From Lucifuga dentata (lineage: Eukaryota > Chordata > Actinopteri > Ophidiiformes > Bythitidae): 64,000 nucleotides of DNA. Below the pieces are notes generated by a model. It was not told the DNA's origin. It saw only the letters and a list, made by a program, of their open reading frames with translations, and did not search any database. Location of the stretch: contig VXCM01000698.1 in assembly GCA_014773175.1 (NCBI GenBank), positions 111,653-175,652 on the forward strand. The letters are read 5' to 3'. The position numbers and the translations under genes were made by a program. Below, in pieces: positions 41,425 to 58,307 of the stretch; position 1 is the stretch's first letter, and each line of letters begins with the position of its first letter.

Positions 41425-44400
41425 ATGGAAAATCCTGAAGACGACATAGCTGTAATTGGGATTGGATGCAATTTCCCAGGAGGTAAGATTGAAATATGAT
41501 GCAAAAGAAGGGCTATTTTCTCTGAAATAGTTTTTCAGGCTAAATTAACAGGCAATTTCTAACTATTGCAGTACATTTGTTTTTAGGTGAAGGTTTGGAC
41601 AACTTTTGGAGAGTTCTGTTGGAGGGAAAAAACTGTGCTGTAGATATTCCTGCAGAAAGGTTTGATAGCGCTGTTTGGTATGATCCTGATGGTACTAAAC
41701 CTGGAAAGACGCACACAACCAAAGCTGCTCTTATCAAAGGGTAAGTGTGTAACATTGTGATATCTGATTTGATAGATTCTTGGTTTTTATGTTACTTATG
41801 GTTCCTCTGTAACCCCTTCAGGTTTAATGAGATTGACCACAAGTTTTTTGGCATCAGTGAAGCAGAGGTTGACTTCATGGACCCTCAGCAGAAGCTACTT
41901 CTACAATGCACATACAGGGCATTAGAGGATGCTGGGATAGCTATGGAGAGCATCAGTGGAAGCAGAACTGGAGTTTATATAGGTAACTGCTACTTCTGAA
42001 TCTGGTGATTTTGTACATTTGAGCCCAATAAATACTACCAAATACATGTTAAGTTACTGACAAACATTTTCCAAAACATAAAACAGTATTTTAGTTTCCT
42101 GTTATTTCACCAAATCCCATCTCTTTTAAAATCAAATGTTCAGGTGATACACACCTTAAAATTCAGTGTTTTGTCTGCTAACACATACATACAAATGTAG
42201 AAGGCATGGTCATTTTTAATTTCTCAGTAAAAGCCGTCTTCTCCTGGGACTATATTCCCTGGCGGAGATATACATTTTTATTCCCTGCAGCTCCAGTTAA
42301 ATTATGTTACTTCAACAAAAACATTTAACAGACACCATATTCACTGTGATGGATTAATTGTCTCAAGCATGTTTCAAGTCTCTACAAGTTGATTTTCATA
42401 GTGTGCTGGAAAGAACTGAAACCAATGGTAGTTTGGAAGGTAGAAAAAACAATTCCAAAATGTACCCCTCCAGTAGCATGTTTTGGGAAATGTTATCGGT
42501 GATGTAACCGGTACACGTGGGTTATATGTAATGGTCTCAAACAAGTAAAACCACCAGTATGGTCCTTTAAGAGTTTCTGTGACAACATCCCGATTTTAAC
42601 CTGCTGTGATTTTGGGTTGTAGGTCTCATGAACAGGGACTATGAGATGCTCCAGAGTAACAGACCCGACACTATGACCCACTATACTTGCACTGGGACGG
42701 CCATGAGCGTTGCTGCCAACAGAATCTCCTTCAGCTTTAATCTCACTGGCCCTTCTTTTGCCATTGACAGTGCCTGTTCCTCATCTTTGGTGGCACTACA
42801 TTTAGCCTGCCAGGCTATAAAGCAAGGTACTAAATCAGCCTCTTCCTGACAGATATTATAAAATTAAACTAATCATTGCATGACATCTACATGTACTTCA
42901 TTTAATAACCTCATTCTCAACTAGGAGATTGTGAGATGGCTCTGTGTGGAGGGGTCAGCTGCATCATAGAGCCAAGAGTGTTTGTTGCTCTCAGCAAGGC
43001 CAAGATGATCTCATCTGAAGGCATCAGCAGACCTTTTTCCAGCAGGGCAGATGGTTATGGCAGAGGGGAGGGATGTGGGGTTGTGCTCTTGAAGCCCCTG
43101 CAAAAAGTAAGTACATTATACTTTGATTTTATAGTCATTTCATGTATCTGAAACAATGCATATGTACAAAATATGTGCTTCCCCTATATAGCTATCAAAG
43201 ATCATATTATGATAATTGCATCTGGACTAACAATAAAATAAATAAACAACAGTCAGTCTGCTAATGACATTACTTTCTATACAAAGGCTTTGAGAGACTA
43301 CAACAAGATTTGGGGTATCATCAGCAAAACGGCAGTCAACCAAGATGGACACTCAGTCACCCCGATGACCAAGCCCTCCATGGTTCAACAAGAGGGGCTG
43401 CTGCGGAGAATCTACTCAGAGTCTGACCTTCTAAACGTCCAGTACATCGAGGCTCATGGGACTGGAACCCCAGTTGGAGATCCGACAGAAGCAGGAAGCA
43501 TCTCAAATGTCATTGCTAAAGCCAAACCTGCTGATTCAGATACCCTCTGGATTGGATCTGTCAAGGGCAACATTGGGCACACTGAATCTGCAGCTGGAGT
43601 TGCAGGACTCATTAAGGTACTGTTAATGATGAAACATGAAATGATTGTTCCCTCAATTTTCTACTCTGATGACAGTGCAAGTGTAGATGTAAAAGCTCTG
43701 AGGATAAGCATTCCCATTAAACCCGAGAAATGGGTGACAAATGGGTCATTAGAGAGGGTAGCTGGGATCAACAGCTTTGGGTTTGGAGGCACAAATGCAC
43801 ATGCAATCGTGAAAGAGTACAAACAGATCACTTTTCGTGCACCTATCCCAAATAAATGTCCACAGGTCTTGGTGATGTCTGCAGCCTCGGAGAAATCACT
43901 GCTATTGTCCATCTCTGACACTCACCAAAGGTTTTTCAAATATCAAACCGTTGACATACAGGCATTGTCGTACACCTCAGCATGTGGGAGGAGTCATTCC
44001 AAACACAAATACAGGAAGGCCTTCCCAATATCATCCCTCTCAAATTTAGACCAACGACTAACTTCCGCAATCAAATCAAAGATCGAGGCAACAAAGTCAG
44101 ATGTTCAGTTGGTGTTTGTGTTTTGTGGGAATGGGGTTGCGTACAGAGGGATGTGTAAGGAGCTTCTAACAGAAGTGCCTGTTTTCAGGCAGAAGGTCAG
44201 AGAAGTTGAGAATCTTTTCCAGAGTTATAAAAGCATCAGCATCAACCAAAAGCTTACTGGCGACTATGATAATGATTTCACCACCCCAGATGTTGTCCAG
44301 CCTCTTCTTTTTGCTATTCAGGTTGGCATTGCCACTGTTCTAAAGCACTGGGGTGTCAAACCTGATATCATTCTTGGACATTCTGTTGGTGAGGTTGCCG

Positions 44401-56400: not shown

Positions 56401-58307
56401 ATTTAAAAAAATCAAAACACAACAATGAGCCGTAATCATAAAGATATGGGAATGAATATTGTGATCACAGTTACACAAGTCCAGGTCCAAAGTATCATTT
56501 ATTGTCGCAATAAAGAATTGTTACTTAATATAACATTAATGAATAAAGTCCAGGCAGCTGAATGGTTAGAAGAGGCAAATGGTGATACACAGTCAATTAA
56601 TAAATTATTATTAGTGCATATTCTGACCTTTTTCAATGGCTTCAGGAGCACAACCCCACAGCCTTCCCCTCTGCCATAACCATCTGCTCTGCTGGAGAAA
56701 GGTCTGCTGGTCCCTTCAGGTGAGATCATCTTTGCCTTGCTGAGAGCGACAAACACTCTTGGCTCTATGATGCAGGTGACCCCTCCACAAACTGCCATCT
56801 CACAGTCTCCTGATATAATAAAACAGAATTTTCACACACGGTAAAATCTTAAACCAGAATAAGGGAGCATCTGTACGATTAATCCGATAATGCTGGAGCA
56901 CGGCTTCCCATCAGAGCTGTCTGTACCTTGTTTGATGGCTTGACAGGCAAGATGAAGAGCAACAAGTGATGATGAGCAGGCACAGTCTATGGACAGCGAA
57001 GGTCCAGTGAAATTGAAGATGTAGGAGACTCGGTTAGCTGCTATGCTCATAGCGAGCCCAGTGCCCGTCCAGTGGTTGATCACACTTGGGTGCACGTGTG
57101 CAGCATTTGTCTCATAATCTCTGTTCATTAGGCCTGTAATAAAATAAACATAAAAGAATGGTTAATCAGTGAATAAGGGATCACTTATGTAAAAGCAATA
57201 AAAAAAAATATTTATACATGCATAAAGTAATTGCAAACAATTATTTTATGCTGGATATTGCACAATATGCAGTAAATGGTTGAATGTTTTAACATCTAAC
57301 CGAAAAACACTCCTGTCCTGGTCCCATTGGCCTTCTCCATAGGAATTCCAGCATTTTCTAAAGCCCTGTACACACACTGAAGAAGCTGCTTTTGTTGAGG
57401 GTCCATCTGTTCCACTTCACTGTCACTGATACCAAAGAACTTGTGATCAAATTCATTAAACCTGGGAAAATTCACAATCAAAAAATATCAGATTTAGTAC
57501 AGTTCAGGAGGATCACAGACTAACATGATTTCTGACAGAGATGCCAGAGTTATTTTGTGAGTAGGTGTTAGGCAAAACTAAAATACAGTTTTGTTTTGGA
57601 AAAACGGTTGTCAGTAACATGTGGGTTGTATATATTGGGCTCAAAAATGCAAAATCATTCCAGGTCAGGTCAGGCTTAAAGGACCAGTCTGGTCCTTTAA
57701 GCTGCTATTTTTTCTTCAAATTCTTCATTGTCATCATTACTTTTTTTACTCATGAGTTCATGATATGCAGGTTTAATGATCTTACCCATCAATGAGAGCA
57801 GCCTTAGCTGTGCGGGATTTACCCGCTTTGCTGTCATCAGGATCATACCAGCTGGCCAAGTCAAATCTGTCCTTAGGAATGGGAACCGAACAGTTCCGCC
57901 CTTCAACAAGAACTTTCCAGAAATTCTCAAGTCCTTCTCCTGTTGAACAGAAACTAAATTGTCTTATCTGAAAGCACAAAGTTGTGTTTTATAAATAAAA
58001 TTTATGATCTGACCATTTATTTAGTAGGAATAATTGAATGATACAAAATCTCTTTTAGCATTACAAGGACTTCATTTGATGCTCAGTATTGCAAGGATAA
58101 GTGTCTCAGTTGCAGCACGAGCAAAGATGTTTTACTCAGATTAAAAAAAAAAAAAATTGTAGATAAACTTCGCGTGAGAAGAAAGCAATCTGTAAATGCT
58201 TTGTTGTTGAAATGTTAAAAAAATAAATTTCCAAACTCAAGGTTCATACCTCCGGGAAAATTGCATCCGATGCCCACCACAGCAATACCATCTTCAGCTT
58301 CTTCCAT
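50476..58307 (-). CDS. Type I polyketide synthase 'PKS-B' (vertebrate pks1 type), complete
   Basis: Paralog of PKS-A. Coding exons: 58250-58307, 57786-57939, 57301-57461, 56927-57133, 56628-56809, 50476-56040; 2108 aa. Exons 1, 2, 3 and 5 have the same lengths as in PKS-A (58, 154, 161, 182) and exon 4 is one codon longer (207). KS Cys177 (DCACSSS), His311 and His352. AT Ser619 (GHSVGE), Arg644, AAYHSHMM. DH His918 (HKHNGVPIIP) and Asp1084 (HPVVLDYLMQ). ER-like region without a glycine motif (IISSVPDSALMK). KR GGLSGLG and Tyr1884. ACP Ser2039 (LGIDSM). No thioesterase. It carries about 30 extra residues after the ACP (EEGGGGNLIDNQESGYQS..., ending DALSTRL). The exon 6 acceptor (GTGAAACAG|GCT) has a poor pyrimidine tract but is placed by homology and phase. 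No stops or frameshifts. Substrate and product are not deducible beyond malonyl-CoA and a KR/DH-processed chain. Confidence 0.92.
50516..50551. repeat. Perfect 15-bp-stem hairpin inside the PKS-B C-terminal codons
   Basis: TTTGATTGATAACCA (50516-50530) and TGGTTATCAATCAAA (50537-50551) are exact reverse complements with a 6-base loop. They encode part of the tail that PKS-A lacks. A direct repeat CAATCTGGTT lies nearby at about 50480 and 50509. Confidence 0.9.
57575..57700. mobile_element. MITE-like element fragment, copy 7, in PKS-B intron 2
   Basis: Contains one terminal portion (GTTGTCAGTAAC ... GGGCTCAAAAATGC) followed by a 25-bp near-perfect palindrome, TTAAAGGACCAG-T-CTGGTCCTTTAA, at 57676-57700, as if two element ends were fused. 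Confidence 0.75.

Follow-up and report, generated by a model that had tools for sequence, protein, structure and literature searches.

Introduction

Animal type I polyketide synthases (PKSs) are known from fish otolith work and from birds, and the present analysis concerns two such genes, PKS-A and PKS-B, which converge tail-to-tail at positions 41425-58307 of a 64-kb stretch of DNA from the fish Lucifuga dentata (contig VXCM01000698.1; the whole stretch is referred to as the window). In medaka, OlPKS needs its ketosynthase (KS), acyltransferase (AT), dehydratase (DH), ketoreductase (KR) and acyl carrier protein (ACP) domains, all of them, for otolith rescue; loss of pks1 alone blocks the formation of embryonic otoliths, and the authors did not find the product of the enzyme (PMC4604110). 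Mutations in zebrafish pks1 go with otolith loss, and the mutants are rescued by medaka pks1 (PMC6531356). The duck PKS uses acetyl- and malonyl-CoA, condenses and ketoreduces, and the budgerigar enzyme MuPKS produces highly unsaturated C14-C18 chains (polyenes); animal PKSs come without a release domain, and in some the enoyl reductase (ER) comes without its NADPH motif (PMC6334511).

PKS-A resembles OlPKS/pks1 (medaka ha; zebrafish nco, csr and vns) in its six exons, its KS-AT-DH-KR-ACP order and its preserved active sites, and both genes share with MuPKS and the duck enzyme ApPKS the domain set, the missing thioesterase (TE) and the ER without an NADPH motif that is found in some of these enzymes (PMC6334511). 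PKS-B shares a clade with proteins named fasn2, to which zebrafish si:dkey-61p9.11 and medaka OlPKS-2 presumably also belong, judging from the gene list and neighbouring gene identifiers (PMC4604110). No reported function for fasn2 was found in the literature searched. Medaka has three pks genes, and fugu and zebrafish have two each (PMC4604110, Table 2); the PKS pair is already known, ordinary for teleosts and not special to the Lucifuga genome. What merits a closer look is a putative gene conversion limited to one KS segment and a conserved C-terminal tag on fasn2. Neither was found in the open-access literature searched, which is no proof of absence, and the covered parts of the OlPKS/pks1 literature make no mention of the homogenised KS segment of PKS-A. 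Taken together, the evidence favours, with reasonable though far from complete confidence, a pair of iterative polyene synthases that share their condensation chemistry, PKS-B being docked through a PDZ ligand and PKS-A being an untethered otolith enzyme.

Gene models and domains

Both models were rebuilt from the DNA. PKS-A (plus strand, 41425-48764) has exons of 58, 154, 161, 204, 182 and 5478 nt and encodes 2078 aa with its sole stop at the end, and PKS-B (minus strand, 58307-50476) has exons of 58, 154, 161, 207, 182 and 5565 nt and encodes 2108 aa. The initial annotation had proposed two intact animal type I PKS genes of these lengths in inverted arrangement and with the same exon layout, and the rebuilt reading frames and models agree with it to the base: nearly all exon sizes are equal, the intron phases are identical (1, 2, 1, 1, 0), and 10/10 introns are GT-AG. 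The last exons lie within single open frames of 1840 (PKS-A) and 1869 (PKS-B) codons from stop to stop, and 1711 bp separate the two stop codons. Protein identity between PKS-A and PKS-B is 54.5% over 2104 aligned positions, and their introns and compared flanks show no match. A tblastn search with both proteins as queries found no further PKS piece within the window. At least 239 distinct relatives of the two proteins, mostly full-length, are among the matches listed, which excludes chance, and PKS-A residues 127-1381 are matched at 100% identity by the full 1255 residues of a protein fragment from Lucifuga dentata. The features are as follows, "homogenised" referring to the KS segment discussed further below.

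41425-41482, plus strand: PKS-A (pks1) exon 1, start codon at 41425
41587-41740, plus strand: PKS-A exon 2
41822-41982, plus strand: PKS-A exon 3
42623-42826, plus strand: PKS-A exon 4, with KS catalytic Cys176
42925-43106, plus strand: PKS-A exon 5, with the start of the homogenised KS segment
43287-48764, plus strand: PKS-A exon 6, with the remaining KS, AT, DH, structural KR/ER-like region, KR, ACP and stop
42948-43700, plus strand: PKS-A homogenised segment, codons 201-391, split by intron 5, with His310, Lys346 and His351
55627-56786, minus strand: matching homogenised segment of PKS-B, codons 202-392, split by intron 5
44112-45047, plus strand: PKS-A AT domain, Ser619 and His726
45225-46022, plus strand: PKS-A DH domain, His924 and Asp1091
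46023-47717, plus strand: PKS-A structural KR/ER-like region, without the ER NADPH glycine motif
47730-48287, plus strand: PKS-A KR domain, Ser1871, Tyr1884 and Asn1888
48552-48743, plus strand: PKS-A ACP, Ser2037
58250-58307, minus strand: PKS-B (fasn2) exon 1, start codon at 58307
57786-57939, minus strand: PKS-B exon 2
57301-57461, minus strand: PKS-B exon 3
56927-57133, minus strand: PKS-B exon 4
56628-56809, minus strand: PKS-B exon 5
50476-56040, minus strand: PKS-B exon 6, stop codon 50476-50478
50581-50772, minus strand: PKS-B ACP
50479-50562, minus strand: C-terminal tail of PKS-B (its final 28 codons), predicted to be disordered, with -STRL at the end
48765-50475, no strand: spacer of 1711 bp between the stop codons, with polyadenylation-type hexamers on both strands

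Pfam places KS, AT, DH, KR and ACP in this order on a single chain in both proteins, with only a trace of ADH_N (below the cut-off in one of them). A TE domain was found in neither protein by Pfam, and a motif scan found the NADPH glycine motif in neither ER-like region. The active-site residues of KS, AT, DH, KR and ACP, identified with general motif patterns, are present in both proteins. Across 74 A/B species pairs, the 14 active-site positions are invariant in the B proteins, and the A proteins depart from them only by one Leu (at the KS Cys of Esox) and by gaps at one KS Cys and one ACP Ser. An active ER was considered and rejected because the NADPH motif is absent, though the fold is recognisable: PKS-A residues 1395-1725 are predicted to adopt an ER fold (mean pLDDT 68.7), with the ER of JamJ as the best match in the PDB (E 4e-10, TM 0.49). 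The region is best read as a retained and probably non-reducing domain; its stretch 1441-1520, without the NADPH motif, is still 68% identical between PKS-A and PKS-B.

Among solved structures, the best sequence matches were a PKS of bacterial origin that carries two KS copies (675 bits) and, next, mycocerosic acid synthase (MAS; 579 bits), followed at lower scores by the fatty acid synthase (FAS) chain 2vz8 (411 bits) and the sea-slug enzymes EcPKS2 (358 bits) and EcPKS1 (354 bits). MAS is a long structural relative, and with animal FAS the similarity lies in the condensing part. The ER is active in MAS, and animal FAS has both an ER and a TE. Unlike these enzymes, PKS-A and PKS-B have neither the ER motif nor a TE, and membership of the animal FAS family is unsupported on these two counts. 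Membership of the animal FAS-like PKSs (AFPKs), whose KS would place between FAS and PKS and near EcPKS1/2, is likewise unsupported, the scores of EcPKS2 and EcPKS1 lying below those of MAS and mammalian FAS in a comparison of bit scores rather than in a KS tree. AFPKs are reported as absent in vertebrates (PMC10764717).

One motif residue of the DH domain varies between the two groups of teleost proteins: the glycine of HxxxGxxxxP (PKS-A residue 928) is present in 63/74 A but only 21/74 B proteins. Both Lucifuga genes keep it, and Lucifuga PKS-B differs in this respect from the 53/74 teleost B proteins with another residue, Oryzias included. The catalytic DH His and Asp and the motif Pro are unchanged despite the variable glycine. 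The DH asterisk on OlPKS-2 in the medaka paper may refer to this glycine (PMC4604110), and the sequences suggest that the dehydration step of B may be different in many fish. Fixed differences between A and B were uninformative as to specificity: only 8 positions are conserved at 95% or more in both clades, and all of them lie outside the homogenised segment, AT and DH.

Orthology and age of the pair

A phylogeny with fish pks proteins had been proposed alongside the initial annotation. Three protein searches listed at least 301 distinct relatives, from which a FastTree phylogeny of 303 sequences was built and rooted on a sturgeon copy, with a second tree of 96 proteins. In the larger tree the PKS-A clade holds 135 and the PKS-B clade 148 proteins (support 1.0 each, no overlap), with 20 outside both; the smaller tree supports the two clades at 1.0 and 0.986. 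Proteins named pks1 (e.g. from Perca, Larimichthys, Lates and Carassius) fall in the A clade, as does a 2051-aa protein from Oryzias. This is the published length of OlPKS (PMC4604110) and bears out the suggested link to fish otolith work. Among the members of the B clade are proteins that carry the names fasn2 or Fatty acid synthase 2; Genypterus fasn2 is 82% identical to PKS-B. The trees show PKS-A to belong to the pks1 clade and PKS-B to the paralogous fasn2 clade.

This clade structure excludes a recent tandem duplication. Both clades contain Otocephala and Euteleostei, so the duplication must date at least to the common ancestor of these two groups. An origin as early as the base of teleosts is possible: three bonytongue copies (P0245, P0254 and P0255) group with A as its sister (support 0.954 and 0.993 in the two trees), and the larger tree, though not the smaller, has a tarpon copy (P0263) in the same position relative to B (1.0); a strict date at the base of Clupeocephala was dropped on account of these placements. 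Gar, bowfin and sturgeon copies lie outside both clades, as do the remaining tarpon and eel copies with weak support. The A and B genes lie on contigs of equal size in 48 of the 52 species that give both values (a hand tally of the 73 non-Lucifuga pairs), and carry consecutive locus tags in Channa striata and Pampus.

At least five PKS copies were seen in Megalops (P0112, P0119, P0120, P0240 and P0263), four of them on contigs of equal size, and these look like the result of local expansion, separate from the main pair of teleosts. A Conger relative (P0241) is a predicted PKS of 2484 aa that also carries PF00665, PF17919 and PF17917, which I take to be retroelement-type domains; the model is probably a mobile element fused into a PKS gene model.

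A conserved tag at the C-terminus of PKS-B

PKS-A stops directly behind its ACP, and PKS-B extends beyond it and ends in -STRL; the last 28 residues of PKS-B are predicted to be disordered (tail pLDDT <50) behind a folded ACP. An end of the form [ST]-x-[VILFM] was found in 126/138 B-clade proteins as compared with 1/130 A-clade proteins and 9/19 copies outside the two clades, where 4.4% would be expected from composition. These counts are limited to proteins with a recognisable ACP, which left out ten B proteins, five A proteins and one outside copy; 6/10 of the B proteins left out are also tagged. More than 55 residues follow the ACP serine in 119/138 B proteins, and of these 115 are tagged and 89 end in -TRL. 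Conservation in the 119 tailed proteins is confined to the very end, with T at 94%, R at 86% and L at 85% in the last three positions and S at 66% in position -4, and no residue above 48% in positions -5 to -25. Tagged outside copies have ends such as YTQF in gar, YTEF, YTEL and YTQL in tarpon, NSKF in bowfin and DTKF in Paramormyrops, whose copy is sister to A, and the tag is present in 1/5 sturgeon and paddlefish copies (ETKF). The tag seems to be ancestral, with a loss in A.

Class I PDZ ligands have the consensus [ST]-x-hydrophobic at the C-terminus; CFTR, for example, ends in DTRL, and the PKS-B tag resembles such ligands of NHERF-type scaffolds. With its conserved end on a disordered tail, PKS-B looks like a protein with a class I PDZ ligand. 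Several points weigh against this reading: the tag is missing from 12/138 B proteins (several with apparently cut or mis-annotated ends) and from 10/19 copies outside both clades, and the consensus applied is a pattern of three residues. The -TRL end might instead be kept for another reason, such as protein stability via the C-end rule, since only three to four residues are conserved and no partner is known. I consider this unlikely, though it is not a negligible alternative, because the Thr third from the end and the hydrophobic last residue persist as L and F, or R, K, Q and E, are swapped between gar, tarpon and percomorphs, which is as expected of a class I PDZ ligand.

Some A proteins of cypriniforms and characins have ends of their own, e.g. 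SVNL and DVLL in cypriniforms, DAYL and DVYL in some characins, and also SVRL within these two groups. Perhaps these represent a different type of PDZ ligand, going by their last residues.

Possible division of labour between the two copies

Division of labour had been offered as one reason for keeping two copies, for example pigment versus otolith. As a general reading it is better than dosage, and its pigment-versus-otolith form is not shown by the sequence; what emerged instead is a difference in the tail (a PDZ-like end in B only) with strong constraint on both genes. In the pigment version, A would seed otoliths and B would make a polyene pigment of skin or eye, as the budgerigar enzyme does, and MuPKS is indeed a relative with the same domain set that makes polyenes (PMC6334511). 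The state of B in an eyeless and depigmented cave fish speaks weakly against this: the gene is intact, and its terminal branch is shorter in Lucifuga than in Genypterus (0.090 against 0.165; for A, 0.113 against 0.174). Only 8/237 pigmentation genes of L. dentata are pseudogenised (PMC7826195), so that the argument from an intact B is a weak one. For Lucifuga there is also a transcriptome assembly, GIAU01000000 (PMC7826195). A pigment role for B seems improbable on balance. Relaxed selection in the cave lineage was considered for both genes and not seen, both being intact and on branches shorter than those of Genypterus, as measured by protein branch lengths.

A finding from medaka weighs against a wide role for the second copy: the two other pks genes are unexpressed in the embryonic stages and adult tissues that were tested (PMC4604110). 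These silent paralogues would speak against a broad role of B in medaka.

Homogenisation of a KS segment

At fourfold-degenerate sites, PKS-A and PKS-B are identical at 73/90 positions in codons 193-400 compared with 171/423 elsewhere (Fisher p 1.3e-12). When single segments are compared, codons 201-391 stand out most, with identity at 83% of 87 fourfold sites against 40% of 426 outside, a contrast matched in 0/200 shuffles, which were scanned on a coarser grid than the real data; identity peaks at 91% of 35 sites in codons 301-360. This segment of about 190 KS codons contains the catalytic residues His310, Lys346 and His351, and the catalytic Cys176 lies outside it.

The DNA-level test covers this window, and the other 73 teleost pairs were compared as proteins. 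Across all 74 pairs, A was closer to the B of its own species by +1.0, +3.9, +4.9 and +1.3 points in windows 181-240, 241-300, 301-360 and 361-420, respectively (0/500 permutations each), and the within-species excess was below 1 point in every window outside 181-420. In window 301-360 the own-species B beat all other A proteins in 20/74 species, as compared with 0 or 1 species in windows outside 241-420. For residues 241-375, A was closer to its own B than to every other A in 13/74 species, B was closer to its own A than to every other B in 10/74, and both held in 9; in six control stretches the own partner was best in 0 or 1 species. A tree of these residues with 148 rows placed A and B as sisters in 12/74 species, ten of them with supports of 0.875-0.998; Aplochiton and Pseudoliparis, two of the 12, have identical A and B proteins here.

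An excess that peaks in the same segment across 74 pairs points to recurrent gene conversion, and ectopic conversion between the copies is the best account of the KS segment, with direct DNA-level support in the present window. Not everything fits. Intron 5 lies inside the segment (180 nt in PKS-A and 587 nt in PKS-B) and shows no similarity between the genes; either each exon underwent its own conversion or the introns were remade at a later time, and one simple tract does not explain it. Moreover, four windows outside the segment exceed most permutations: 1441-1500 (+0.9, 0/500), 1381-1440 (+0.8, 5/500), 781-840 (+0.7, 2/500) and 1081-1140 (+0.3, 9/500).

Purifying selection that extends to silent sites, through an exonic enhancer or codon bias, might produce the same KS identity, and it would sit well with the dissimilar intron 5 and with the segment ranking near the top in conservation in both proteins. 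Selection of this kind would not bring A closer to the B of its own species than to the B of other species, with an excess centred on the segment, nor does it agree with the A/B sister pairs in 12/74 species. The conserved KR block at 1841-1920 offers a comparison: amino acid identity is 75%, yet fourfold identity at 1861-1920 is 45%. Selection is accordingly a poor candidate, and conversion is retained.

The homogenised KS half, together with the same architecture and the same active sites, could also be taken to mean that B serves as a spare for A and increases the output of one product, and dosage had been put forward as a reason for two copies. This did not hold up. The split is old, the proteins have clade-specific C-termini, their overall identity is 54.5%, fourfold identity outside the one segment is 40%, and the DH and structural KR/ER regions are just 41-42% identical between A and B within species. 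Over the whole protein and 74 species, mean identity within the clade is higher for B (0.764) than for A (0.692), and B is the more constrained in each of eight protein segments. Lastly, loss of pks1 alone is enough to block embryonic otoliths in medaka (PMC4604110), and mutations in it go with otolith loss in zebrafish (PMC6531356). Dosage is therefore a remote explanation. An assembly artefact, in which B would be another, diverged haplotype of A or a duplicate of it, can practically be dismissed, as the initial annotation had also argued: inverted adjacency is a possible shape of assembly errors, but B is nearer to Genypterus fasn2 than to A, introns and compared flanks are unmatched, and orthology to separate clades refutes it.

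Proposed mechanism

The pair is best read as two iterative, ER-dead, thioesterase-less polyene synthases; as to product, partner and the function of B, I infer the following. Each enzyme would load acetyl and malonyl units, condense, ketoreduce and dehydrate without enoyl reduction, and the outcome of the cycle would be a linear polyenoyl-ACP that is released by a separate enzyme. Ectopic gene conversion between the inverted copies would keep alike the half of KS that contains the catalytic His and Lys residues, so that condensation probably follows a similar chemistry in A and B; the parts for processing and the ACP would have diverged. Mixed A/B dimers are possible.

The duck and budgerigar chemistry and the otolith rescue by OlPKS make it most likely that PKS-A produces a polyenoyl chain that seeds otoliths. 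Having lost the tag, PKS-A would be untethered in the otic vesicle, where it would make the otolith-nucleating product. PKS-B most likely builds a similar chain and would deliver it to a PDZ scaffold, its tag docking the ACP end there, probably near a membrane and beside the release partner. A more specific and only tentative version places fasn2, as a scaffold-docked megasynthase, at a cortical or apical membrane complex in which the release enzyme also sits, with pks1 untethered and conversion keeping the condensing halves interchangeable. If so, one chain-building chemistry would be delivered at two cellular addresses. The docking-like tag may then offer a handle on both the site of action of fasn2 and its releasing enzyme, and conversion limited to one segment would suggest that the condensing chemistry is shared and the processing differs.

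Other features of the window

Outside the PKS pair, the 10 examined of the 584 other open frames of at least 40 codons showed no Pfam family above the cut-off, and the window showed no tRNA (bacterial settings) and no Rfam match at the gathering score. A serine-rich open frame of 387 codons at 35994-37154 (plus strand), with no Pfam match, has the appearance of a large exon from some unrelated gene. An Asp/Glu-rich open frame at 20259-20627 (plus strand) runs over a 51-bp tandem repeat and has sub-threshold Pfam matches only. Two neighbouring two-copy tandem repeats, of 68 bp with 100% and of 62 bp with 98% matches, lie at 26471-26762.

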